Positions 10,203 to 28,633 of a stretch of 64,000 nt of DNA are shown one piece after another. The stretch's first letter is position 1. Each line of letters opens with the position of its first letter. The position numbers and the translations under genes are program-made. The notes below the pieces were generated by a model. It was not told the origin of the DNA, searched no databases, and saw only the letters and a program-made list of their open reading frames with translations. Source of the stretch: Verrucomicrobiales bacterium (lineage in GTDB: Bacteria; Verrucomicrobiota; Verrucomicrobiia; Verrucomicrobiales; V1-33); contig JAQGPJ010000041.1 of the NCBI GenBank assembly GCA_028293125.1, positions 1 through 64,000 on the forward strand. The letters are read 5' to 3'.

Positions 10203-12170
10203 TCAATTGGCGATGATCGTGCGGTTCGGCCCCTCGGTCAGAATGCGTCCATCGGATTTGATCACCATCACGGTGGAGGGCGAGGTGGAGACGTGGGCTC
10301 TGCCCCCTTTGCCTCCCTCCCGGACCTCGGGTTTCTCCCTGAGAGTGATCTCGCCGGTGGCCGGCCGGTAAATCACCCGGCCCGCGCTGACCATCCGTGC
10401 GGAGCCGGGCTGCCCCGCCTGGGCGCGCAGCATCACATGGCCGGAAGCCTCCAGCCGCTCAATGCCGTTTCCGGTCTTTTTCAAAAACACCTCCACACGG
10501 TCCCCCCGCAGGTGGACCACTTTGTCATTCAGTTCCACTCTGCCGGTGTAGATGACCTTGTTGTTCTTCTGATCGTGCTCTGTCCGGCCCGCTGACTGAA
10601 TGTCCACACTGCCGATCGCCGGCTCATCAAAAGCCGGAAGACTCTCCGGGAGTTTTTCCATCACAGTGTTCTCCACTCTCAATGGCAGAACAGCGGATGT
10701 GGGCATGGAGCGGGAAAGAACGGGTTCAGCCGCGGACTCCAGCTGCGGATTTTCGGAGACGCGGGTGGCGGCAAGGGCCAGGGAGCGCGCAAAAACCTCC
10801 TCACGCTGGGCCGGCGGCCTGGCGGCGGGGGAGGAGGAGGAAGCGGCATTGCCGCCGGGCTTGAGGAAAACGGGAATGGTCGCGGGGGCCGTGGGGGCTT
10901 GGACCGCCACCAGGACCGGAGCCGCGGTGCGGGCAGGGACAGGCGGAGCACTGGCAGCCGCCGTTGCCGGCGGCTTCACAGCCTCCGGTTTATTGCCACC
11001 CTGACGGGCGGAGGGATTGGCGACCACTGTTTTGCCGGCATCCCTGCCAGCGTCCCCTGCGGAGCCGGGAGCACCATCCGGTCCTCCTTTGAGAGTCAGG
11101 CTGGCGGTGCGGGAGTGCAGAAAATCACCCAGCCCGCTGAAGTCATCCGACGGCATTGCCGGAGACAGGGGCGCGGCCTTGGTCACAAAATCCGCCGCCT
11201 GCCGGCGGTCAGACCCGACGGAAGCCGGAAGGGGTCCCGGTTTGTCATCGGGAAGGGAGAACTTGTCGGAAACTGACGCCGGCGCGGGGCGGAAAGTGCT
11301 CTGCTTTTTGGCACTGGCCGCCATGGCGGCCCGGGCGGTCATGGCATCAATCGGCGCCACCGGTCTTTTGGGCGGGGCCACGTCGGGATTGGAGGCGGAA
11401 AAAGTCCGGGGAGCGGTGCTGTCCACCATGAGGGAGACGAAAGTCAGGGCGGAGGGCAGCCCTGTGGGCATGCCAAAGAACCGCTGTCCAAGATCGGCGG
11501 GAACAAAAACCCGGGAGGCGAACATATCATGATTCGGGGAGTCCGCACCGGCATCATTCCTATCGCCATCAGCGTTAGTAAAGTTGGAGGCGGTCTGCAC
11601 CAGACCGGAGGATGCCAGGGATCTCCCTTTGCCGGCACCGGTTTTTTTACCGGCAGCCACAGTGCCCGCTCCAGCGGTTTTGGCCGGCGGGGCATTGTCC
11701 GCAGGCTTTGATTTCTTTTTCGTGCCGGCGCTGGCCTGGGTTTTGTCAGGCGCGGACTTCGCGGGCTTGACGGAGGGTTTGGCCAGGGTCTTTGAATTGG
11801 CAGCCACGGTTTTCCCGGGTGACTTCCCCGCCGCAGGGGCGGCGGGTTTGCTCTTTTTGGCAGTTGTCAGAGCTTTGTCCTTGCCCGGTGCAGGTTTGGC
11901 CGGAACTTTGACCACGGCTTTGGGCTGGCCCTTCTCTTTGGAGCCGGGGGCTTTTGCGGTTGGTGAGGATTTGGCGGCAGTCTTTTTAGGCGCTGCGGGT
12001 TTCAGGGTGCCAGGTTTCGCAGCCGTGCCTTTTTTGGAGCTTCCACTGCTGTTGCCTGAGACGACAGGCTTGGACGCGGATTGCCCTTGGGCCTGAACGC
12101 AGGGAACGGCGGGAAGCCACATCAGCAGCCCGGCAGTGAGTAGACTGGTACTGATTTTCACAAAATCCAC
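10203..12170 (-). CDS. Secreted LptA/OstA-domain protein with a long Lys/Ala/Pro-rich N-terminal region
   Basis: 655 residues with a signal peptide ending near 'VQAQG'. Residues about 30-190 are extremely rich in Lys, Ala, Pro, Ser and Gly (runs such as 'KPAPGKDKALTTAKKSKPAA'), resembling histone H1-like tails, and a low-complexity Ala/Pro region follows to about residue 500. The last about 130 residues hold the recognisable domain: 'DIQSAGRTEHDQKNNKVIYTG-VELNDKVVHLRGDRVEVFL' and 'ASGHVMLRAQ', the repeated beta-strand pattern of LptA/OstA proteins that bridge LPS across the periplasm. The adjacent kdsD supports an LPS role. E. coli LptA is about 185 residues, so about 500 residues here are extra and probably disordered. 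Confidence 0.72.
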   Translation of the reverse strand: MDFVKISTSLLTAGLLMWLPAVPCVQAQGQSASKPVVSGNSSGSSKKGTAAKPGTLKPAAPKKTAAKSSPTAKAPGSKEKGQPKAVVKVPAKPAPGKDKALTTAKKSKPAAPAAGKSPGKTVAANSKTLAKPSVKPAKSAPDKTQASAGTKKKSKPADNAPPAKTAGAGTVAAGKKTGAGKGRSLASSGLVQTASNFTNADGDRNDAGADSPNHDMFASRVFVPADLGQRFFGMPTGLPSALTFVSLMVDSTAPRTFSASNPDVAPPKRPVAPIDAMTARAAMAASAKKQSTFRPAPASVSDKFSLPDDKPGPLPASVGSDRRQAADFVTKAAPLSPAMPSDDFSGLGDFLHSRTASLTLKGGPDGAPGSAGDAGRDAGKTVVANPSARQGGNKPEAVKPPATAAASAPPVPARTAAPVLVAVQAPTAPATIPVFLKPGGNAASSSSPAARPPAQREEVFARSLALAATRVSENPQLESAAEPVLSRSMPTSAVLPLRVENTVMEKLPESLPAFDEPAIGSVDIQSAGRTEHDQKNNKVIYTGRVELNDKVVHLRGDRVEVFLKKTGNGIERLEASGHVMLRAQAGQPGSARMVSAGRVIYRPATGEITLREKPEVREGGKGGRAHVSTSPSTVMVIKSDGRILTEGPNRTIIAN

Positions 12171-16715: not shown

Positions 16716-18056
16716 ATGAAATCATTCCGCCTTCTGCCTGTCCTGTGCCTGTTCCTGATCACCGCCGGCACCAAGCCAGCGCGGGCGGATCTGAAAAGCT
16801 GGCTGGACAGGCCGGAGCCGGACTACCAATGGGAGTTGACCGAAACCGTGCATATGCTGGGCTGTGATATTTTCCGGCTGAAGCTGGTTTCCCAAGTCTG
16901 GCAGGGTATGCAATGGAATCACGACTTGGTGGTGTTCGCTCCGAAGGACGCCGCCCCCACGGACCAGATCCTCCTGCTCAACGAGGGCGGCAGCGCCAAT
17001 CCGCGGGGCTATCCCTACGGCATGCTGCTGGCCGCCAAGATCAAAGCCCCCTGCGCCATGCTGCTGGGCATCCCCAACCAGCCGCTGTTTGACGGCAAAA
17101 AGGAGGATGCCCTGATTGCGGAGACTTTTGTGAAGTATCTGGAGACAGGTGATGAGTCCTGGCCCCTGCTCTTCCCCATGGTGAAAAGCGTGATCAAGTC
17201 CATGGACGCGCTGCAGGCCTTTTCGGAGAAGCACCTGAGCAAAAAGGTGGAGCGCTTCATCCTCACCGGCGGCTCCAAGCGCGGCTGGAACACTTATCTG
17301 GCCGCCGCCTCCGACCCGCGCGTCAGCGCCATCGCGCCCATGGTGTTCGACTCCCTGAACATGGCGCTGCAACTTCCCCACCAGAAGGAAATCTACGGCG
17401 GGTACAGCCGCATGATCGATGACTACACCTCCCGCGGCTTGGTGCCCATGCCGGACACCCCCGCCGCCAAAAGGCTTTGGAGCTGGGTGGATCCGTGGTT
17501 TTACCGCCAGCGCCTGACCATGCCCAAGCTGATTCTGGCCGGCACCAACGACCCCTTTTGGAACACCGACGCCCTGAATCTCTATTGGGACGGGCTTCCG
17601 GAAAACAAATGGATTGCCTACATCCCCAATGCCGGCCACAGCCTGAACGAGAAGTCCGTCAAAACCGGCCAAAGCGACCGCAACCGGGCCATCGACACCC
17701 TCTGTGCCTTTGTGCGCTGGCAGCTCACCGGCACACCCATGCCCACCCTGACGTGGCGGCACGACGATACTGCGGACGGCTGGTCACGCCTCACCGTGAC
17801 GGCTTCCCAAGCTCCCAAATCCGCCACGCTGTGGGCCGCCACTGCCACCTCACGCGATTTCCGCGAGTCCACTTGGCAACCTCAAACGCTGGAGATTCCC
17901 GCCGACGGCAAAATCACCGCCCTGGTGCCCAAGCCCGCCACCGGCGGCCAGGCGTTCTACATCGACTGCGGCTTCTCCATGGAGGAGCTCACCTCCCACT
18001 TCTGCACCCAGCTCCGGGTAGTTGCCCCCAGTGCAGCCGCCAGCAGCGCGAAGTGA
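16716..18056 (+). CDS. PhoPQ-activated pathogenicity-related protein (alpha/beta hydrolase fold)
   Basis: 446 residues from the ATG giving 'MKSFRLLPVLCLFLITAG', a signal peptide cut near 'ARA'. The mature protein has 'FRLKLVSQVWQGMQWNHDLVVFAP', 'LLNEGGSANPRGYPYG', 'MVKSVIKSMDALQAFSEKHL', the nucleophile elbow-like 'ILTGGSKRGWNTYLAAASDPRV', 'IAPMVFDSLNM' and 'LILAGTNDPFWNTDALNLYWDGLP'. These define the PhoPQ-activated PqaA family. The C-terminal 90 residues form a beta-rich domain. Function in environmental bacteria is unknown; a hydrolase in the periplasm is likely. It ends just before the accessory region. Confidence 0.87.
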   Translation: MKSFRLLPVLCLFLITAGTKPARADLKSWLDRPEPDYQWELTETVHMLGCDIFRLKLVSQVWQGMQWNHDLVVFAPKDAAPTDQILLLNEGGSANPRGYPYGMLLAAKIKAPCAMLLGIPNQPLFDGKKEDALIAETFVKYLETGDESWPLLFPMVKSVIKSMDALQAFSEKHLSKKVERFILTGGSKRGWNTYLAAASDPRVSAIAPMVFDSLNMALQLPHQKEIYGGYSRMIDDYTSRGLVPMPDTPAAKRLWSWVDPWFYRQRLTMPKLILAGTNDPFWNTDALNLYWDGLPENKWIAYIPNAGHSLNEKSVKTGQSDRNRAIDTLCAFVRWQLTGTPMPTLTWRHDDTADGWSRLTVTASQAPKSATLWAATATSRDFRESTWQPQTLEIPADGKITALVPKPATGGQAFYIDCGFSMEELTSHFCTQLRVVAPSAAASSAK

Positions 18057-18566
18057 CTCTTTCAGGAGTTATGCCATTGGCTGCGGGGTATTGTCAGTGG
18101 TGTGGCGGCTTTGCTGGCCATGGGTCCGCAGCCGGGCTGCGGCCATGCGGGCTTTGGCCGGATACAGCGATTCAGCAAAAGGTTCCCGCTTCACGAGGAT
18201 TTCCTCCATCCGCACCATAATGAAATGAGGCCTGTTTCCAAGAAATCATGGTCCGCCCGCAGAGCGAGGCGTTTTGCAAGAATGTCTGCATAATATACCG
18301 CAGGCTGCATGATTCCAACACAGACCCACCCGAATTTTGCCTTACTCCCCCCCGGCCCTGATTCTGCGATGTGTAGCCCGGTCGCGAACAGGAGGTCAGA
18401 CTCGGCGCTCCCTCATGCCTCTAAGTTGTAAATTGAGTATTTATATCGCTGGCCCTCGCGGGGCGCTTTTTGCACTCCGGGGGTTGGGCCTGCGGAATCG
18501 GCACCCACCCCCCATTCTAAAAAACATACTTCTTATGCAAACAATACCGCTACCGTTAACAGCTCC
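18057..18566. other. Gap of low coding signal at the left edge of the accessory region
   Basis: No convincing gene starts in these 510 bases. From about 18300 base composition falls and the style changes from the Verrucomicrobial flank. A plus-strand frame is open without stops from 18432 (just after a TAA) into the coding region of the next entry, but has no ATG or GTG before 18567. A G-rich/C-rich imperfect hairpin lies at about 18479-18513. Confidence 0.4.
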
Positions 18567-18953
18567 GTGGAATCCACCGAAAACGCGTTCCCGTGTGAGG
18601 CGGTGTCCGAATGGACTGATAAAGCAATGACGTCCCTTGGCAGCAACGCGGGCAGTGGATATTCCCTCATCACAGGAAGGTGGGTGCCAGTTGCTCGGAA
18701 AACGATGAACAAGGTGCAGGCTAAGGCATCTGACGCAATGCTTAAGAAACTGGCAATCACCACGCTTCCCCTCATCAAAACGCAGTTCCTGTTTTCGCCA
18801 ATCGCATACACAAACCAAAAACCAACTGCGAATATGAGACTGCAAGCCTTCGAAGCTCTCTTCCTTCACGGATTCAAAGACCTTTACAGCGCCAAAAATC
18901 ACTTCATCAAGGCGCTCACGAAGATGGTGAAAGCCGTGACGAGTCCAGAATAA
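18567..18953 (+). CDS. Hypothetical protein, foreign-looking
   Basis: 128 residues from a GTG start, no family recognised. The product is mixed charged and Ala/Lys-rich with phrases such as 'EWTDKAMTSLGSNAGSGYSLITGRW' and 'FKDLYSAKNHFIKALTKMVKAV', and has no signal peptide or membrane helix. The same frame stays open 45 codons upstream to 18432 and reads like protein there ('RWPSRGAF'), so the true start may be further 5' or the gene may be truncated. Base composition is clearly lower in GC than the flanking genes and resembles the operon that follows. The minus-strand frames across it also stay open, so coding strand is not certain. Confidence 0.4.
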   Translation: MESTENAFPCEAVSEWTDKAMTSLGSNAGSGYSLITGRWVPVARKTMNKVQAKASDAMLKKLAITTLPLIKTQFLFSPIAYTNQKPTANMRLQAFEALFLHGFKDLYSAKNHFIKALTKMVKAVTSPE

Positions 18954-19065
18954 GATCTGGGTTCGCCCATCATTCCGAACATACCCCTTTGGGCTCATTT
19001 TAGGAAATGCAATCCGTCGGAGTAGTTCTGCTGGAGGCCGGATCATATTCAACTGGAATTAAATT

Positions 19066-19794
19066 ATGTCAAAGCACACAGATCTATCCGGTAAGCGCAT
19101 TCTGTTGAGTGGCGGCACAACCGGCATCGGCAGGGAAACGCTTAAGCTGCTCGTGGGCAAGGGTGCGCGCGTGCTCACCTTCGGGCGCGATGCCCCCGCG
19201 CTTGAAGACGCACTCGCTTATGTTCCTGATGCAATCGGCCTCACCGCTGACGCTGCAACCAAGGATGGGATCAAGAAGATTTTCGCCGAAATGGATGCAA
19301 AACTGGGAGGCCTCGACATTCTTGTTGCATGTGCGGCGCTGGGTGCCCAGCCGATCCATGAAATGGCCGATAATGACTGGCGTTACGTGATCGAGACCAA
19401 TCTGGTCGGCTATCTTGCCTCCGCCCGCGAAGCGATCCTGCGCATGGAACCGCAGGGTGGCGGACATTTGCTATTCGTCGGATCGATCAGTACTGAAATC
19501 AAGGCCGAGGGTGAAAGCGTCTATTCGGCGACCAAGGCTGGCATTCAGGCGTTTGCCGAAACTCTTCGCAAGGAAGTTGCGGTAAAGAATATCAAAGTAA
19601 GCGTCGTCCAGCCCGGTTCGGTGGACACCGATATGCAGGAATTGACCGCAGAGCAGAAGCGCGAGGCCGTCGCCGCTCACGAAATGCTTCATGCCGAGGA
19701 GGTGGCCGAAGCAATTGAATTCATTCTGACGCGTTCGGAGCGAACCGATATCGTAAATCTGCGAATCGAGCCGCGGCTCCAGAAAACCAGCTGA
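19066..19794 (+). CDS. Short-chain dehydrogenase/reductase (first of two in the operon)
   Basis: 242 residues. Classical SDR: nucleotide loop 'SGGTTGIGRETLKLLVGKGARV' (TGxxxGxG variant GGTTGIG, about 15-36), 'LDILVACAALG' in place of NNAG, catalytic Ser in 'LLFVGSISTEIKAEG', and the catalytic Tyr and Lys in 'SVYSATKAG'. It oxidises or reduces a hydroxyl/keto group with NAD(P)H; the substrate is not evident, but the neighbours suggest a sugar or polyol. First gene of a four-gene run, with four bases between its stop and the next ATG. GC content and codon use differ from the flanking Verrucomicrobial genes and resemble Alphaproteobacteria. Confidence 0.88.
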   Translation: MSKHTDLSGKRILLSGGTTGIGRETLKLLVGKGARVLTFGRDAPALEDALAYVPDAIGLTADAATKDGIKKIFAEMDAKLGGLDILVACAALGAQPIHEMADNDWRYVIETNLVGYLASAREAILRMEPQGGGHLLFVGSISTEIKAEGESVYSATKAGIQAFAETLRKEVAVKNIKVSVVQPGSVDTDMQELTAEQKREAVAAHEMLHAEEVAEAIEFILTRSERTDIVNLRIEPRLQKTS

Positions 19795-19798
19795 GAAC

Positions 19799-20869
19799 AT
19801 GAAACAACAGCCACCCTTTTTGATGAAAGCCGCGGTGAAGACGGCCCGTGGCAGGTTTGAGATCACCGAAGTTGAGCGCCTTGGTATTCCCGATGCCGAC
19901 TGGGTGCTTGCGCGGGTGCGCGTCGCGGGGATTTGCGGCACTGACCTGCGGCACTGGGACAAACCTGAACCCGAGCTCGAACATCATATTGTGGGTCATG
20001 AACTGGCGGGGGAAGTCGTTGAAATCGGCTCAGCAGTCACCAATGTCGCTCCGGGAGACCGGGTCGTCATCGAAAGCGTCATGGGTGACGGCGAGTGTGA
20101 ATGGTGCCGCGTGCAGCAGTATAATCTCTGCCCCAATCTATACGAGGTCAGGACCAAATGCGTGTCGCGCGCTTACGGCGAGTTTGTCACCGGTCCCGCC
20201 AGTAAGTTCTACAAGTTGCCGGAGCATATCAGTTTCGAAGAGGCCGCCCTGATCGACACTTTTTCGGTGTGCGTCCACGCACAACACAAGTCGGGGCTTT
20301 CCATCAACAACAAGGTCGCGATTATAGGGGCGGGGCCAATTGGCCTTGGACAATTAATGCTCGCCAAGGCAAGCGGCGCCGATGTGCTGATCACCGACGT
20401 CGTGGACAGCGCGTTGGCGAAGGAGCTGGGCGCGGATGTGGTTCTCAACACGGGCCGTGACGACCCCGCGGCAGCGGCGATGGCCTTCACCGGAGGCCGT
20501 GGCGTTGACATCGTCTTTGAATGCTCGGGCGGCAGGAGTATGCCAGTCACGCTGCCTCAGGCCACACAAATGGCGCGGCGTGGAGGCAAGGTGGTTATCG
20601 TCGGCGGATTCGATAAAGGGGTGACCACAATCGGACTGGAATGGCAGCGGATTCAGATGTCCGAAATACAGATTATTCCAAGTGCCAGCTTCTCATTTTA
20701 TGGACTTGACGCCGAACAGGGCATAGCGCTGGAACTGCTTTCGAAAGGCAAGCTGAACGCCAGCAAACTGATTACGCACCGCTTCACCCTGGATCAGATC
20801 AATGATGCATTCGAAGCCGGTGCGGCAAAGGAGAAAACAGCGGCTACCTTTATCGCAATCTCAATCTGA
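19799..20869 (+). CDS. Zinc-dependent alcohol (polyol/sugar) dehydrogenase
   Basis: 356 residues of the MDR family. Catalytic zinc ligands are visible in 'AGICGTDLRHWD' (Cys) and 'HHIVGHELAGEV' (His-Glu). A structural zinc loop is present with at least three cysteines ('GECEWCRVQQYNLCPN'). The Rossmann loop is 'VAIIGAGPIGLGQLMLAKASGA'. Closest in pattern to sorbitol/L-threonine-type dehydrogenases acting on vicinal hydroxyls. The first ATG gives MKQQPPFL; an internal ATG eight codons on (MKAAVK) is the more usual family N-terminus. Its stop codon overlaps the lactonase start by one base (TGATG), so the genes are translationally coupled. Confidence 0.9.
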   Translation: MKQQPPFLMKAAVKTARGRFEITEVERLGIPDADWVLARVRVAGICGTDLRHWDKPEPELEHHIVGHELAGEVVEIGSAVTNVAPGDRVVIESVMGDGECEWCRVQQYNLCPNLYEVRTKCVSRAYGEFVTGPASKFYKLPEHISFEEAALIDTFSVCVHAQHKSGLSINNKVAIIGAGPIGLGQLMLAKASGADVLITDVVDSALAKELGADVVLNTGRDDPAAAAMAFTGGRGVDIVFECSGGRSMPVTLPQATQMARRGGKVVIVGGFDKGVTTIGLEWQRIQMSEIQIIPSASFSFYGLDAEQGIALELLSKGKLNASKLITHRFTLDQINDAFEAGAAKEKTAATFIAISI

Positions 20870-21921
20870 TGAGTGATAGCCTCAGCGAATTGCACCTGTA
20901 TGTAGGCACTTATGCCGATGCTGGCGGTAAAGGCATTTACCCGCTTGGCCGCGAAGATGGAAAATGGGTAGCTGGCGACGCGTACAGGAGCGCACCAAAT
21001 GCTTCATTCGGAGTTTGGTCCAAGCGTCATGGCTTGTTTTATCTGGTCGACGAAAGAGCAGGAAAAATCGGGGTTTACCGTTGTGATCAAGGCAAATGGA
21101 GGCTGTTGGCCAGCACCTCAACGGAAGGTGATCAGCCGTGCCATCTTGCATTAAATCCGGATGAATGGTGGTTGGCTGCAGCTAATTACGGCTCAGGGAG
21201 TATCGCTCTGTTTCCTTTAGGTTCCGACGGTGGGTTGCTCAGCGAACCGACGATTCGGCAGAATGACGGCAGCAGCAAGGTCAAGGAACGGCAGGAAGGT
21301 CCGCACGCGCATTGTGTCGTTTTCAGTCCTGACGGGCACTGGCTTTACCAGACAGACCTCGGCACCGACGAAATTCTGGCCTTCGGGTTTGACAACGACC
21401 GAGGCCTGACCGGAGAACGCATATTGGCCTATAAGGCCGCGCCCGGCTCGGGGCCCCGACACCTGATATTTCATCCGCAAAAGCCGCTCGCGGTTCTGAT
21501 CAGCGAACTGGCGAGCACCCTGACGCTGTTCGAGGTGAAGCCGGACAGACTATCCATGCTGCAATTGATATCCACGTTACCTCCTGGTGCCACCACCGAA
21601 AATCTTGGTGGCCATGTCATGATCAATGCGGCTGGCGACCGGCTTTACGCAACAAATCGGGGCCATGACAGCATTGCCACCTTCGCCATTGGCGATGCCG
21701 GGCAATTGTCGTTCCTGCGTGACACACCTTCCGGCGGGGCGTCGCCCCGCTTTTTCCTCCTGCTCGAAGAACAGCGACTGATGGTTGTCGCGAACGAGGA
21801 GGGCAACATCGTCACATTCTTTGATGTTGGGCCGGACGGCCTGCTGACTCAATCGGGTGGAATCGCCATTCCGGCACCGGCTTTTATTTTCCAAACCCAC
21901 AAAAGCACCACATATGACTGA
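20869..21921 (+). CDS. Lactonase family protein (6-phosphogluconolactonase-like beta-propeller)
   Basis: 350 residues with the seven-bladed propeller pattern of the YbhE/Pgl family: 'LHLYVGTYADAGGKGIY' at the start, 'GDQPCHLALNPDEWWLAAANYGSGSIALFPL', 'GPHAHCVVFSPDGHWLYQTDLGTDEI', 'GSGPRHLIFHPQKPLAVLISELASTLTLF', 'LYATNRGHDSIATF' and 'GASPRFFLL'. No signal peptide, so cytoplasmic. It would open a sugar lactone made by one of the neighbouring dehydrogenases. It overlaps the upstream gene by one base and the downstream SDR by eight, showing a single translational unit. Its composition is among the least GC-rich in the window. Confidence 0.88.
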   Translation: MSDSLSELHLYVGTYADAGGKGIYPLGREDGKWVAGDAYRSAPNASFGVWSKRHGLFYLVDERAGKIGVYRCDQGKWRLLASTSTEGDQPCHLALNPDEWWLAAANYGSGSIALFPLGSDGGLLSEPTIRQNDGSSKVKERQEGPHAHCVVFSPDGHWLYQTDLGTDEILAFGFDNDRGLTGERILAYKAAPGSGPRHLIFHPQKPLAVLISELASTLTLFEVKPDRLSMLQLISTLPPGATTENLGGHVMINAAGDRLYATNRGHDSIATFAIGDAGQLSFLRDTPSGGASPRFFLLLEEQRLMVVANEEGNIVTFFDVGPDGLLTQSGGIAIPAPAFIFQTHKSTTYD

Positions 21922-22648
21922 CCTACATGGCAAAAGGGTATTGATTACCGGCGGGGCAGGCGGCGTCGGCAGCGCAGTCGCCCAGCGGATGGTCGCGGCT
22001 CGCGCCAAAGTGCTTCTCGCCGATCGGGACGAGCTCGAGCTGCGCCAAGCTGTTGCAAAGCTCGCACCGTCACGCGATATTGAAGCTGTCACTGCTGATC
22101 TATCGAGCGCCAGCGGGCTCAAACGGATGTTTGACCGGGTGGATGCATGGCTCGGTGGCCTCGATATCCTTGTCGCCTGCGCAGGCGTAGGCTCCGGACC
22201 ATTGCTTGAAATGGATGATGCCGCTTGGCGCTATGTGATCGAAAGCAACCTCGTCAGCTATGTTGCCTGCACCAAGGGGGCAATCGACCGGATCAAAGCG
22301 GGCGGCACAAACGACGGCATGATCATCCTGGTCGGATCGATCAGCGTTCATATCAAGGCGGTTGGCGAAAGCGTTTACAATGCCTCCAAAGGCGGCGTCG
22401 CGTCATTCGCCGAAACGCTTCGCAAGGAGCTTATCCCGGAAAGCATCCGGGTCACGCTCATCGAGCCAGGAGCGATCGGATCGGCGCTGCAGCCTTATTC
22501 GGCCGAGCAACGGGCGGCTGAAATTGAAGCCTACAAGATGCTGCCAGCTGGCGAAGTCGCTGAAGCAATTCTATTCGCCGCCACCCGGCCACCCGGTGTG
22601 GATGTGGTGACGCTTCGGATCGAACCGCTCGTGCAGAAAATTTATTAA
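21914..22648 (+). CDS. Short-chain dehydrogenase/reductase (second of two in the operon)
   Basis: 244 residues from the ATG giving 'MTDLHGKRVLITGGAGGVGSAV'; the longer frame to 21857 lies wholly inside the lactonase gene. SDR hallmarks are GGAGGVG, 'LDILVACAGVG', 'LVGSISVHIKAVGESVYNASKGG' with catalytic Ser, Tyr and Lys, and 'IEPGAIGSALQ'. It is paralogous to the SDR at 19066 ('GSIS--IKA-GESVY-A-K-G' and 'FAETLRKE' in both), so the operon carries two diverged copies, perhaps for two successive oxidations or for two epimers. It overlaps the lactonase by eight bases. IS debris begins just after its stop. Confidence 0.88.
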   Translation: MTDLHGKRVLITGGAGGVGSAVAQRMVAARAKVLLADRDELELRQAVAKLAPSRDIEAVTADLSSASGLKRMFDRVDAWLGGLDILVACAGVGSGPLLEMDDAAWRYVIESNLVSYVACTKGAIDRIKAGGTNDGMIILVGSISVHIKAVGESVYNASKGGVASFAETLRKELIPESIRVTLIEPGAIGSALQPYSAEQRAAEIEAYKMLPAGEVAEAILFAATRPPGVDVVTLRIEPLVQKIY

Positions 22649-22715
22649 TGCAACAGACCGCCACATGCTTCAATAGGGGGAGACCACACAAAGGGAAAAA
22701 AGTGCACGCTAACGC

Positions 22716-22895
22716 AAGCCTTTGACGAATGACCGTCCCGCAAGGCGGTGAGGCGGCTGCGGTGTGCCATGGGGGGGCGTAACGCAATCAAAAGCACAGG
22801 AACGGAGCATGGCACTGCTGCGCAAGTTTGAAATCAGTGGACTTTCGCTGGCGGAGTTCTGCCGTAAGCCTTTGACGCGTGACCGTTCGTCAAGG
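22716..22895. repeat. Pair of 30-bp direct repeats in IS debris
   Basis: Copies at 22716-22745 and 22866-22895 share 25 of 30 bases, with conserved parts AAGCCTTTGACG, TGACCGT and CAAGG. The copies start 150 bases apart and lie either side of the TnpA-like fragment. They sit between the foreign operon and hom and look like scars of insertion or recombination. Confidence 0.6.
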
Positions 22896-22955
22896 CTTGA
22901 CAGCAGCCTGCCTGCCGCTGCCGGGGCCTGCACTTTGTCTGTGGCGGCGGCGTAG
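22764..22955 (+). pseudogene. Fragment resembling IS66-type accessory transposase OrfA/TnpA N-terminus
   Basis: The frame around 22785-22868 reads 'QSKAQERSMALLRKFEISG', then 'LSLAEFCRK', matching the N-terminal pattern of IS66 OrfA proteins (a short helix, then 'SGLS-A-FCR'). After FCRK the similarity stops at the second direct repeat (22866), so the rest of the gene is gone. The remaining gap 22649-23013 has no other gene. On the minus strand a short Ala-rich frame is open but unconvincing. Evidence is one motif only. Confidence 0.4.
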
Positions 22956-23013
22956 GCTTCGAGTGTCAGGGTCTGAGCCGTTCCGCTGGCAGCGGCGGAC
23001 AGTTTGGAGAGGA

Positions 23014-23047
23014 CACGCCTGAATTATTCAGATAAATTACCAAAACC
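23014..23047 (+). repeat. Inverted repeat, left copy (flanks hom)
   Basis: 34 bases beginning CACGCCTGAATTATTCAGAT and ending AAATTACCAAAACC. The reverse complement of 24483-24516 matches it at 32 of 34 positions. The right copy contains the stop codon of the decayed IS701-like transposase, so both are probably ends of the same type of IS, facing each other across hom. This copy lies 7 bases beyond the hom stop codon. Confidence 0.75.
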
Positions 23048-23054
23048 GAAGTAA

Positions 23055-24377
23055 TCAGGCACCGCGGCCTTTAAGCGATTCCACACGCAGCAGGACAGGG
23101 GTGGTCTGCACGCATTCCAAAGCGGCGATTTCCGCGACGGCTTTTTTCATGGTGCCATAGGTGGCTTGGTGGAGCATGAGCATCAGATCGGCATCCGCGC
23201 TCGGATCCACCTCCGGTTGCTGGAGGGACAGGATGCCAATGCCATGGCCGGCGATGATTTTGGAGATGGAGGCGATCACGCCCGGGCGGTCGTCCACCCG
23301 CAGCCGGAGGTAATAACGGCTGACGGTCTGGTCCACCGGCAGGCAGGAGCCGTAGTGGCCTTGGGGGATGAAGCCGTTGTTGGTGCCGGCCTCGTTTGCC
23401 AAGTTGTCCACGGCGTCCGCAAGGTCGCTGATCACGGAGCTGCTGGTGGCATTCTGGCCGGCGCCACTTCCGTAAAAAAGAGTCTCGCCCACAATGTCGC
23501 CGTAAACGGCCACGGCATTCATGACGCCGTGCACATTGGCCAGGATATGGGATTGCGGTACGAGGCAGGGCTGCACACGGACCTCGATGCGGTTGGAGTC
23601 GTCCAGCCGGATCACGCCCAACAGCTTCACCACATAGCCCATGCTGCGGGCGAATCTGAGATCGGTCTGGGTGATTTCCGTGACGCCCTCCACATGCACC
23701 TGCTCCGGCCGCAGCCATGCGCCGTAACTCAGCCAAGCCAGCACGATGGCTTTGTGGCCGGCGTCCCAGCCATTGACATCCAGCGTGGGGTCTGCCTCCG
23801 CATAACCCAGCACCTGGGCCTCGCCGAGAGCATCGTCATAGCTCAGACCGGCCTCGCTCATGCGGGTGAGAATGTAGTTCGTGGTACCGTTGATGATGCC
23901 GTAGATGGCCTTGATGTGGTTGCCGATCAGAGCCTCCCGCACGGCCTTGATGATGGGGATGCCCCCGGCCACGGCGGCCTCAAAATACAACGGCACATCC
24001 TCACGCTCCGCCAAGGCCACTAATTCATGGCCGTGCTCCGCCAGCAGCGCCTTGTTGCCGGTGACCACCGTCTTGCGGGCCAGAATCGCCGTTTTGACGA
24101 GGTGATAAGCCTCGGTGACACCGCCGATCAGCTCCACGATGACGGGAATCTCCGGGTCGTTCACCAGATCGCGCCAGTCCGTGGTCAGCATGCCCTCCGG
24201 CACCTGCAGCTCCGTATGCTTCTCGGGTGTCCGCACGGCGATGCGGCGCACTTGGATGCGCACTCCCGTGCGGTCGGTGAGCAGATTCCCGTTTTTCAAA
24301 AGATTCTTGTACACACCCGCCCCCACGTTTCCCAGCCCGGCCAGGCCCACAAACACAGTCTTCGGTTCACTCGTCAT
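23055..24377 (-). CDS. hom: Homoserine dehydrogenase with ACT domain
   Basis: 440 residues from the ATG giving 'MTSEPKTVFVGLAGLGNVGAGV'. The Rossmann domain 'GLAGLGNVGAGVYKNL' (NAD(P)H) is followed by 'VVTGNKALLAEHGHEL', 'YFEAAVAGGIPIIKAVREALIGNHIKAIYGIINGTTNYILTRM' and 'AQVLGYAEADPTLDVNGWDAGHKAIVLAWLSYG', which contains the catalytic and substrate-binding residues. A C-terminal ACT domain ('YYLRLRVDDRPGVIASISKIIAGHGIGI') provides threonine feedback control. The enzyme reduces aspartate semialdehyde to homoserine for Thr/Met synthesis. It is a single-gene unit lying exactly between two inverted IS-end-like repeats, unusual for a core gene. Confidence 0.95.
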   Translation of the reverse strand: MTSEPKTVFVGLAGLGNVGAGVYKNLLKNGNLLTDRTGVRIQVRRIAVRTPEKHTELQVPEGMLTTDWRDLVNDPEIPVIVELIGGVTEAYHLVKTAILARKTVVTGNKALLAEHGHELVALAEREDVPLYFEAAVAGGIPIIKAVREALIGNHIKAIYGIINGTTNYILTRMSEAGLSYDDALGEAQVLGYAEADPTLDVNGWDAGHKAIVLAWLSYGAWLRPEQVHVEGVTEITQTDLRFARSMGYVVKLLGVIRLDDSNRIEVRVQPCLVPQSHILANVHGVMNAVAVYGDIVGETLFYGSGAGQNATSSSVISDLADAVDNLANEAGTNNGFIPQGHYGSCLPVDQTVSRYYLRLRVDDRPGVIASISKIIAGHGIGILSLQQPEVDPSADADLMLMLHQATYGTMKKAVAEIAALECVQTTPVLLRVESLKGRGA

Positions 24378-24482
24378 AAGGCGGCGACATAACACCGCAC
24401 CCCGCGCCCCGCGCAAGGGGCAGCGTCGGAATGTGACACGGGCCTCCCCACCCTTTCATACCAGTCCCGGCACACATAATCC

Positions 24483-24516
24483 GGCTTTGGTAATTTATCT
24501 GAATTATTCAGGCGTG
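24483..24516 (-). repeat. Inverted repeat, right copy (end of IS701-like element)
   Basis: Reverse complement of the 34-base repeat at 23014-23047 with two mismatches. The transposase remnant read on the minus strand ends with a TAA at 24504-24506 inside it, so this is the 3' end of the element. It lies 106 bases upstream of the hom start codon. Confidence 0.75.
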
Positions 24517-25430
24517 CCCTTCAAAGGAACCTGGGATCCCGCGGCGAAGTCCATGGAGGACCGTCTTTTACGGTGTCCGAGCTCCAACTGGCGCAGGACA
24601 TCGTCCGGCGTCACGGCGGCGGCGGGAAGGAAATGGCGCAGCAGCCCCATAATATCCTCACAGCTGAGCAGAGGGTGCTCCTCCGTGCGCATCATGCGCT
24701 CCCTCAGCCTGGAAGAGCATGGCCAGCATCACCGGGTGCCCCGAGTCACGCCATGCCAGCCAGCCGCGTGTCTGACAGTCCGCAAGGCCGGGGCTGATTT
24801 TGGTGCCCTGGAAGCCGCGCTCAATAAAATACCTTGCGCAGGCCATGTGGACCAGACGCACGGCGGGAGTGTCCGCCGGGCATTGCTCAGAGTCCATGAA
24901 ATCTCCTCCGACTGCCCGTTTTTGTCCGGCGCGCGCCGGGCGGTGAGGTGCCGGAGGCGCGGCCGCTCCTCCTGGCCATCCCATAAATACACCCGTTCAT
25001 GAATATATTCGACGCGGACCTCCCCGCGGGTCCTCCGGCGCAGGACGGTGACGGTCCAGGCATCTGCGGGCCGGGCGGCGGTCCACTCCGTGACGGTGAC
25101 CGGAGCGGTGGCCGCGGTGGACATCGGCCACGAAAGTCTCCCCGGCATCGTCTAGCGCCCGCAACAGCGCGGGATCCTTCCCGTAACCGGAATCCAGCAC
25201 CGCGGCCTCAAAGGCAGCCCCGGTGCTCCGCAGGTGCCGGATGAACTCCAAGGCCAAGGCGGCTTTGGTTTTGAATCCGCACTCCTCCGGGATGCCGGCC
25301 CGGGCGCAGAGGGCGGCATCCACGCACCACTCCTCCGGAGGTAAAAAGCCGCGCTCCGGCACGGCCCGGTCAAACCGGGATTCCTGGCTGGCTGGCACAT
25401 CACCACCGCCGGTGCATGACACTCCCCGCG
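24504..25430 (-). pseudogene. IS701-like transposase, truncated and frameshifted
   Basis: Three reading frames on the minus strand together make the C-terminal two thirds of an IS701-type DDE transposase. About 25422-25130 reads 'LPPEEWCVDAALCARAGIPEEC' and 'AVLDSGYGKDPALLRALDDAG' (DDE Asp in LDSGYG). About 25130-24880 reads 'VRVEYIHERVYLWDGQEERPRLRHL'. About 24880-24700 reads 'RYFIERGFQGTKISPGLADCQTRGWLAW' (the E region). About 24695-24504 reads 'PLLSCEDIMGLLRHFLP' and ends at TAA. The N-terminal third is missing; the remnant stops close to the 3' end of the prenyl synthase gene. At least two frameshifts make it inactive. Confidence 0.8.
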
Positions 25431-25485
25431 GACCGCTTCCGTCAAACGCCGAAAACTCCTTTTCCCCTGCCCTGTCCCCTTGGAT

Positions 25486-27153
25486 TTACGCCACCTGCGC
25501 GGTGGGAATCTGCGCTGGGACAGCGGACACGCCGGCCTCGGTGTGGCACCAGCCTTTGACTTCAAGGGGCGTGAAGATTTTGCCCACCACGCGGCGCATC
25601 AGACCTTTGAGATTGGCGTTGTCGAGGTCCTGCAGCGACCGGATGGCCTGCTCCCTGTAGCGGTCCAGAAGATCGCTGGCATGCTGGCGGGCTTTCTCCT
25701 GATCGCCGCTGAACCGCTCCGCGGTCAGGCAGGACACCAGATTCACGGACGGGGCCACGCCCTCCGCCGGCGGGCCGGCATTGAAGTCCTCGAGATCGTC
25801 CTTGATCTGATACGCGATGCCAAGGGCCTCGCTGAAGGCGCGCAGGGTCTCCTCCACCTCATCCAGCCTTCCGGCGTGGGCGGCTCCCAGCAGCAGGGCC
25901 ACGGAGAAGGCGGGAGCGGTTTTAAGCCGGAAAATCTCCAGCACCTGGCCACTGGTGAGGGGCACGGGATTTTTTTGCCAGGCGAGTTCAGCTCCCTGTC
26001 CCTGGCAGAGCTCGCGCTGTCCGTGGGCGGCGATGCGGATGAGGGGAGCCAGCGACGCCGCAGGCAGGCCGCATTCGGCGATGAGGCGGTAGCCCTCGCC
26101 GATCAGCAGGTCGCCAGCGTTCAGCGCCACCGCCAGACCGTGCTCAGTATGCAGCGCCGGCACATCGTATCGCTCCGCGTCGCCGTCCTCAATGTCATCA
26201 TGGATGAGCGAGGCCTTGTGGAAGCACTCCACGGCGATGGCGAGTTTTTTCACGCTGTCCGTGAAGGGGGCCTCGGCATTCTCCCGCAATGCCTGGCTGA
26301 CAGCCACAGTGAGGAATGGACGCCAGCGGTTGCCATGCCCCGCCAGCCAGGTGCGGGCCACCTCCTCCGCCTGCCCTTCCGCAGGACCCATCAGGGAGGT
26401 CAGGCTCTCATTGGAGAACCAAGTGCGCACCTCCTCGTGCAGGGCGTTCAGATTCAGCCGCCGGGTGCGGTCCTCGCTGGTCAGGTGCAGGTAGTCCCAG
26501 ACCCAGTCGATATCGACCGTGGTGTCGATGCAGTCATCCTGGAGGAGCGGCACGGCGACAGCGGGGATGGCCGCGGCCTCCACATACGGGAAGGTGCGCT
26601 CCAGCACCGGCAGGCAGGAAATGCCGACGATGGCCTCAATTTTCCCCGTCTGGATCAGCGACATCACGATGGCGCTGCCCTCGGCGACCAGCACCGCGTA
26701 GCCCAGACGCTCGGCCTCGTTCTGAAAATCCTGAATGGTGCAGAGCCCGCACTGCTTGCAGAGCAGGCCAAACTCGTCAAAGGGCGCGGGGCATTTGCTC
26801 TCCACCCGCAGGCACTTGGGCATCAGCAGCAGGCGGCGCTCGTAGGGAATGGTAGCCAGGGATTCGCGCCAGATCTCGTTGTTCAGCAGCACGCCCGCAT
26901 AGTCCCGGTACGCCGGGTCCAAGCCCGACTCCAGCACCACGCGCGCCGCCAGCTCCTTCAGTTCATCCGACGGCAGGGGCGGCACCGGCTTCTCACGCTC
27001 CACAAATTCCCGGATGAAGCGCAGCAGGGCATCCCGGGCGGGCTTGGTCTGGGGAATGTTCTTTTTGGGAGTCCGGAAGCGCCGGGAAGTCGGCGGCAGC
27101 GCAGGCGGCAGAGTGACGGACGGCAGGACTGCGGAAGGGGGAGCGGCGGACAT
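25486..27153 (-). CDS. DUF116 - polyprenyl synthetase fusion protein
   Basis: 555 residues from the ATG giving 'MSAAPPSAV'. The N-terminal half (about 85-225) is a DUF116 domain: 'LLLMPKCLRVESKCP', 'GLLCKQCGLCTIQDFQNEAERLGY', 'IEAIVGISCLPVLE' and 'VPLLQDDCIDTTVD', with about eight conserved cysteines likely to bind a metal or Fe-S cluster. The C-terminal half (about 255-555) is an isoprenyl diphosphate synthase with both Asp-rich motifs intact: 'LIHDDIEDGD' (about 319-323) and 'QIKDDLEDF' (about 452-456). It should condense isopentenyl and allylic diphosphates. What the Cys-rich domain adds is unknown. Single gene, stop codon next to the IS remnant. Confidence 0.88.
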   Translation of the reverse strand: MSAAPPSAVLPSVTLPPALPPTSRRFRTPKKNIPQTKPARDALLRFIREFVEREKPVPPLPSDELKELAARVVLESGLDPAYRDYAGVLLNNEIWRESLATIPYERRLLLMPKCLRVESKCPAPFDEFGLLCKQCGLCTIQDFQNEAERLGYAVLVAEGSAIVMSLIQTGKIEAIVGISCLPVLERTFPYVEAAAIPAVAVPLLQDDCIDTTVDIDWVWDYLHLTSEDRTRRLNLNALHEEVRTWFSNESLTSLMGPAEGQAEEVARTWLAGHGNRWRPFLTVAVSQALRENAEAPFTDSVKKLAIAVECFHKASLIHDDIEDGDAERYDVPALHTEHGLAVALNAGDLLIGEGYRLIAECGLPAASLAPLIRIAAHGQRELCQGQGAELAWQKNPVPLTSGQVLEIFRLKTAPAFSVALLLGAAHAGRLDEVEETLRAFSEALGIAYQIKDDLEDFNAGPPAEGVAPSVNLVSCLTAERFSGDQEKARQHASDLLDRYREQAIRSLQDLDNANLKGLMRRVVGKIFTPLEVKGWCHTEAGVSAVPAQIPTAQVA

Positions 27154-27343
27154 GCGGAAAAGGGAGGGGTCGCGGAGGATAGGCCGGGTGCGGGCAAATG
27201 CCAACTTTTAGATCGCGGAGCGGAACCGGGAAGTGTGCAACATTACGTGATGCCGGTCCGGTATTGTTTCAGGGTTGGCCTTGGAATGCTGGCCTTTGGA
27301 ATGGGCAGGCCCTTCCAGTCCGGAATTTATTAAAATCCCGCCT

Positions 27344-28633
27344 TCAGCTTCCGGGCAGTTCATCCCAGGATTTCAGCCCTGTCAGCGGCAGTGCAAAGGC
27401 GGCGGCTTCGGACCAGGCGGGCGTGCCGGCGGCTTTGAAAAGCGGGTAAATGCGTTTGGAGCGGTCAGGGGTGGAGATGGAGCCCGGTTTGTGCCGCCAG
27501 AGCCCCAGCATCAGGCCGCCCTCCTGGGAGTGATCCACATGCCGGTGGTAGATGAAGGCGTCCACCAGAGGGACCCGGCGGCATTTTTCCCAAGCGTAGG
27601 CAAAGGCGGCAGCCTGCAGGTCCTCCCCTTCAGGGCGGTCCAGGGTGTGGAATCCCTGCTCGCTCAGAATCACACGCCGAGGCTTGCCCTGCCAGAGCAG
27701 TTCCGGACGGGACAGGTGTTTGGAAAGCACCTCCAGGTTTTTGAAAGTCACATGCGGGCTGTCGTCATCCGGTGTCGCGTCCTTGTCCAGCCAGGTGCGG
27801 GGATTGCCCAGATCATCGGGATACGGATGATGCGCCAGCGCCCAGTCGTAGTCGCCGCCCTCCCCCTCCCGCGCCAAGCGGGCGAAGGTGTCCATGAAAT
27901 CACGTCCGGAGGTGGCCTCCTCCGGGCTGATGCCGGGCATGGAGGCCTTCCAGTGATGGTCCAGCGGGATGTAAAGCCGGGCATTGGCGGAGGCTTTGCG
28001 CACGCTTTGGTGGGCGATGCGGAAGGCTTTTTCGTATTCGGCCGCGGCTTCGGCCATGGGCATTTTGCCCAGGTTGTACCAGAGCCAGTGGGAGTTCACC
28101 TCATTGCCGATGATCCATCCCCACACCCGCCCGTGCTCCGGATGCGCCCCGCTCCAGCGGTCGGCCAGAAACTCCATCACCGCCCGCAGCCAGCGCCGGC
28201 CCTCAGCGGTGGCGGTGTTGAAGGCCCCAATGCTGTAGGATCGGTCCGCGCGCGCGGAGGAATGCTGCACGGTTTTGTCCTTCACCGGGTCCCCCGTGGG
28301 ATAGGCCAGAATGATCAGATACACCGCCACTCCGGCCTCCGACAGCGGCTTCACCTGTTTATCCAAAGCCGCAAGGGCCCGAGCTTGAAAGGCGTATTCC
28401 GTGCCCTCGCAGGTCCAGCGGGGATTGCCCTCCCGCTTCTCCGGATCAATGAGACTGGAGATGTTTACATTGATGCCGGCATGATGCACCCCCAGCGCCA
28501 GGGCGTCGTCCACCATCTGCACCTGAAGACCTTTGATATCCGGCAGTTGAGGAAACGGAGTCTGATCCGGCGCCGCTTTCAGCAGCAGCGGGAACAGGCA
28601 GAGCAGACTGGCGCACAGAGGGAAAAAACGCAT
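27344..28633 (-). CDS. Secreted DUF5722 (glycoside hydrolase-like) protein
   Basis: 429 residues from the ATG giving 'MRFFPLCASLLCLFPLLLKAAP', a signal peptide. The mature part has a TIM-barrel look: 'ALGVHHAGINVNISSLI', 'VAVYLIILAYP', 'VWGWIIGNEVNSHWLWYN' (candidate acid/base Glu in GNEVN), 'DWALAHHPYPDDL' and 'RRVILSEQGFHTL' (candidate nucleophile Glu in LSEQG), then 'FIYHRHVDHSQEGGLMLGLW'. This is the DUF5722 pattern of clan GH-A-like proteins in PVC and Bacteroidota; sugar substrate unknown. Confidence 0.8.
   Translation of the reverse strand: MRFFPLCASLLCLFPLLLKAAPDQTPFPQLPDIKGLQVQMVDDALALGVHHAGINVNISSLIDPEKREGNPRWTCEGTEYAFQARALAALDKQVKPLSEAGVAVYLIILAYPTGDPVKDKTVQHSSARADRSYSIGAFNTATAEGRRWLRAVMEFLADRWSGAHPEHGRVWGWIIGNEVNSHWLWYNLGKMPMAEAAAEYEKAFRIAHQSVRKASANARLYIPLDHHWKASMPGISPEEATSGRDFMDTFARLAREGEGGDYDWALAHHPYPDDLGNPRTWLDKDATPDDDSPHVTFKNLEVLSKHLSRPELLWQGKPRRVILSEQGFHTLDRPEGEDLQAAAFAYAWEKCRRVPLVDAFIYHRHVDHSQEGGLMLGLWRHKPGSISTPDRSKRIYPLFKAAGTPAWSEAAAFALPLTGLKSWDELPGS

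Follow-up and report, generated by a model that had tools for sequence, protein, structure and literature searches.

Homoserine dehydrogenase is encoded in the window (the whole 64,000-nucleotide stretch of DNA analysed here) by hom, a 440-aa reading frame at 23055–24377 on the minus strand that matches Pfam Homoserine_dh, NAD_binding_3 and ACT. A short repeat that looks like the end of an insertion sequence (IS) flanks the gene in two inverted copies. We asked whether hom was moved as the cargo of an IS pair, or whether IS copies landed beside a gene that was already in place.

The two repeats derive from the right end of an IS701-family element

Positions 23014–23047 agree with the reverse complement of 24483–24516 at 32 of 34 bases, as an earlier note on this DNA had described, and a repeat finder lengthens the inverted match to 44 nt at 89% identity. 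With up to 3 mismatches allowed, the window has two occurrences of a 25-base core of the repeat, 100 window shuffles have none, and the whole 6.48-Mb genome holds 3 copies of the core; a chance origin is therefore excluded. The earlier note had proposed a genome search for the repeat and for complete IS copies, and this search yielded one apparently complete element. Located on contig C100 (about 3098–4638 of L004), it has the third copy of the repeat as its right end. Its open transposase of 446 aa scores 300 bits against the NCBIfam IS701 model NF033540 (cut-off 150) and 177.9 bits against Pfam DDE_5. The element has terminal inverted repeats, with TTCGGCTTTGGTAATTT common to both ends, and is bordered at either side by ATAA, a 4-bp target duplication read by eye.

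Each window repeat consists of the terminal repeat plus the last transposase codons. Since these codons are present in both, both are right ends of the element, rather than one left end and one right end. A 3′-terminal stretch of an IS701 transposase remnant is found in the right copy, with the stop codon that the earlier note had assigned to it, and such a stretch is found in the left copy as well. Thus, the inverted repeats are two right ends of an IS701-family element, both pointing inward at hom.

The two copies abut unlike target sequences

Exact termini were placed from the C100 copy together with a right-end rule drawn from a related IS701 element in the same-genus genome G004. The right end of that element is found at 15 places, many of them at contig ends; read by eye, the terminus follows AGAA in 15/15, and the tetranucleotide beyond it fits NTAN in 14/15, the exception being TCAA. 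These copies reflect the insertion preference of the related element, not that of the window's own IS701. With at least 15 right ends, the G004 element looks recently active.

This places the end of the left remnant at 23050; its putative target, GTAA at 23051–23054, touches the hom stop codon at 23055–23057. The right remnant ends at 24480, with an inferred target of ATAA at 24476–24479. Hence, the earlier reading of the 34-mers as IS ends stands as to IS701 ends that face hom, but the exact termini lie 3 bases further inward. The inner targets of the two copies are unlike (GTAA versus ATAA), as separate insertions would leave. The usual target of the IS701 family is YTAR, for which no literature match was found; the C100 target ATAA is 4 bp long and its first base is not Y.

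Both copies are relics

The right remnant, on the minus strand at 24480–25400 (outer limit approximate), retains the right end and part of the transposase. It lacks the left end, the first third of the element and the N-terminal part of the transposase, carries an internal deletion, and is frameshifted so that the transposase falls into three pieces. The three window transposase fragments score 67.8, 28.2 and 16.3 bits against NF033540, each under the cut-off of 150.

The left remnant, on the plus strand at 23003–23050, is shorter still, with the last transposase codons, the stop codon and the right-end terminal repeat. Its local alignment to the C100 element starts at 23003 and reaches 87% identity over 47 nt. 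The sequence at 22881–23008 aligned to the C100 element with a score of 13.0, no better than shuffles (mean 14.9, maximum 21.5). A genome-wide BLAST search with the complete element gave 7 matches, including the C100 self-match, and none lay left of 23009 on the contig. The proposed loss of the transposase from the left copy is therefore borne out, with about 48 bp remaining. Across the whole genome, no further left end of the element was found at up to 3 mismatches besides that of C100. Both window IS701 copies, having neither a left end nor an open transposase, are relics.

The left remnant directly abuts a relic of a different element. At 22864–23002 lies the transposase side of an IS66 right end, with its terminus at 22864, that matches L188 at 73% over 164 aligned columns; the adjacent L188 ORF is an IS66 transposase. 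This relic in turn abuts the interrupted tnpA of a second one, an IS66 left end on the plus strand at 22714–22863, comprising the terminal repeat and the start of tnpA and cut inside that gene. The second relic shares 81–83% DNA identity over 109–156 nt with five ends in its own genome (L189, L190, L191, L193 and L194), and L189 ORFs match IS66 TnpA, TnpB and LZ_Tnp_IS66. The IS66 assignment follows from these DNA matches to own-genome ends whose ORFs hit IS66 models. The genome has many IS66 elements, as shown by about 20 such ends, several of which coincide with the end of a contig. The likely order of events is that one IS66 inserted into another, and that a deletion then joined IS66 to the IS701 remnant.

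The earlier note had tentatively linked the loss from the left copy to the arrival of a foreign cassette. Four genes at 19066–22648 encode an SDR, a zinc alcohol dehydrogenase, a lactonase-type beta-propeller and an SDR-like protein, the last so called by eye. Their GC content is 53–59%, compared with about 61–66% in the surroundings, and comparison with plasmids gave three weak matches (Asticcacaulis, Spirosoma). The cassette was likely acquired horizontally. Nested IS66 insertion and deletion explain the loss at least as well as cassette arrival.

hom resembles a resident gene with its own upstream region

A search of the genome for the second hom that the earlier note had suggested looking for found none; hom is single-copy. 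Its product is 86% identical to those of the same-genus genomes G003 and G004, and 73–76% identical, in long matches, to those of other genera of the family; G007, G010, G001 and G002 gave partial matches only, and G016 none. Same-genus sequences are closest and other genera next, which fits the expectation for a resident gene. On this pattern of identity, hom appears to be a resident core gene. One further contig, L009, is labelled Rhodoglobus and carries a hom 87% identical to that of the window, probably a binning error.

The region upstream of hom, at 24378–24475 on the minus strand, contains a CTTGYGC motif (GCGCAAG near 24411–24417 on the plus strand). CTTGTGC is common to the upstream sequences of several relatives, and the window has CTTGCGC at the corresponding place, as judged by eye, between the right IS end and the hom start codon. 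This region is likely the hom promoter. A sigma-70 consensus scan of it gave no match, and no promoter-like match directed outward was found at the IS ends.

A terminator search returned one terminator-like match inside hom and none at the IS ends. At 23003–23060, the hom stop region and the IS end can form a hairpin in which GCCUGA pairs with UCAGGC (−13.4 kcal/mol, z −2.55, without a U tract), perhaps due to chance. No RNA families were detected at 18000–28000, and a search for tRNAs found none.

Gene order is shuffled around hom and elsewhere

We compared hom neighbours between the window and its relatives, using window ORFs that are 60 aa or longer and start between 5000 and 45000. Twelve relative hom loci correspond to ten places, as L010 and L126 share one contig and L011 and L127 another; three of the ten places (L009, L133 and L134) lie on contigs shorter than 5 kb. 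None of the ten holds any window gene besides hom. Where the earlier note had asked whether hom has the same flanks in all relatives, the flanks proved unlike those of the window.

Queries from four of the ten loci showed that the relatives also have few hom neighbours in common among themselves. The overlap is small rather than nil: a gene at 10707–11918 of L132, close to hom, has homologues of about 50% identity in the hom vicinity of L129, L130 and L131. Two other window genes served as controls. For polyprenyl synthetase, which adjoins the right relic, an adjacent window gene was in common at 0/6 relative loci, with two of the loci matching distant window ORFs; for dprA, the count was 0/4, with two matching a distant window ORF. 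Because the controls also lack common neighbours, gene order is generally shuffled and hom is no exception. Its variable position therefore needs no IS explanation.

An inverted 13-mer match within 800 bp around hom was absent in 8/8 relatives compared, covering eight of the ten places (L133 and L134, with partial hom, were omitted).

Independent insertion is the likeliest explanation

Very probably, two independent IS701 insertions were tolerated just outside an important gene and then decayed. From the mapped termini, the relic state of both copies and the single-copy hom, we infer that two copies of one IS701 type would have entered the gaps flanking hom independently, their opposite orientation putting both right ends toward the gene. 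One would have inserted just past the hom stop codon. The second would have entered some 100 bp ahead of the start codon, clear of the likely promoter, and insertions within hom or its promoter would have been lost to selection. The left copy would then have been reduced to 48 bp beside the nested IS66, and the right copy truncated and frameshifted. Two observations weigh against independent insertion, beside the fact that the G004 preference belongs to a related element: movement of hom would equally give neighbours unlike those at all ten relative places, and the symmetric layout with right ends inward fits a composite unit just as well.

Those same observations are what the composite reading draws on. 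The earlier note had suggested that hom was moved or inverted as a composite unit, and two related, inverted IS copies do flank a potential cargo gene here. The pair would have carried hom and its promoter to this site as one unit, relocating them within the genome, and then decayed until the outer ends were erased. We consider this very unlikely. Both window copies are truncated, no outer ends survive for a transposase to act on, and, with both left ends lost, an outer target duplication is unreadable. Moreover, hom is single-copy and most like same-genus genes, the two control genes show that relocation is not special to hom, and no IS701 homologue was found near hom at the 12 relative loci from ten places. 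If true, it would be a rare instance of an IS pair moving a core biosynthesis gene. Inversion of hom in place, by recombination between the two copies, draws on their inverted orientation and is similarly improbable: no duplication pair survives to reveal swapped flanks, and the flanks are common to no relative, so nothing speaks positively for it. The chance that the 34-mer is instead a dispersed terminator or regulatory repeat is smaller again, close to negligible. The 34-mer has a small palindrome and folds with the hom stop downstream of the gene, but the repeat lacks a terminator-like match. We rejected a repeated terminator because the core occurs only three times in 6.48 Mb and one of those copies, on C100, ends a complete IS701.

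Taken together, the locus most likely reflects commonplace wear of the genome, and nothing indicates that hom travelled by transposon. Independent IS relics beside a retained gene can thus mimic a composite transposon, and what tells the two apart is whether the unit has outer ends with a target duplication beyond them. The locus adds one further case of IS wear by a resident gene, in a group with strongly shuffled gene order.

Comparison with known systems

The element has in common with the IS701 family (NF033540, DDE_5) the transposase family and, in the C100 copy, terminal inverted repeats at both ends and a 4-bp target duplication; both window repeats are the right end of such an element. 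The window copies differ in being inactive fragments without left ends, and the target here is NTAN, as against the usual YTAR. The arrangement resembles IS-flanked composite transposons in that one IS, present in two inverted copies, encloses a gene. Unlike those systems, it has no functional outer ends and no outer target duplication, and its cargo would be a resident core gene with no evidence of transfer.
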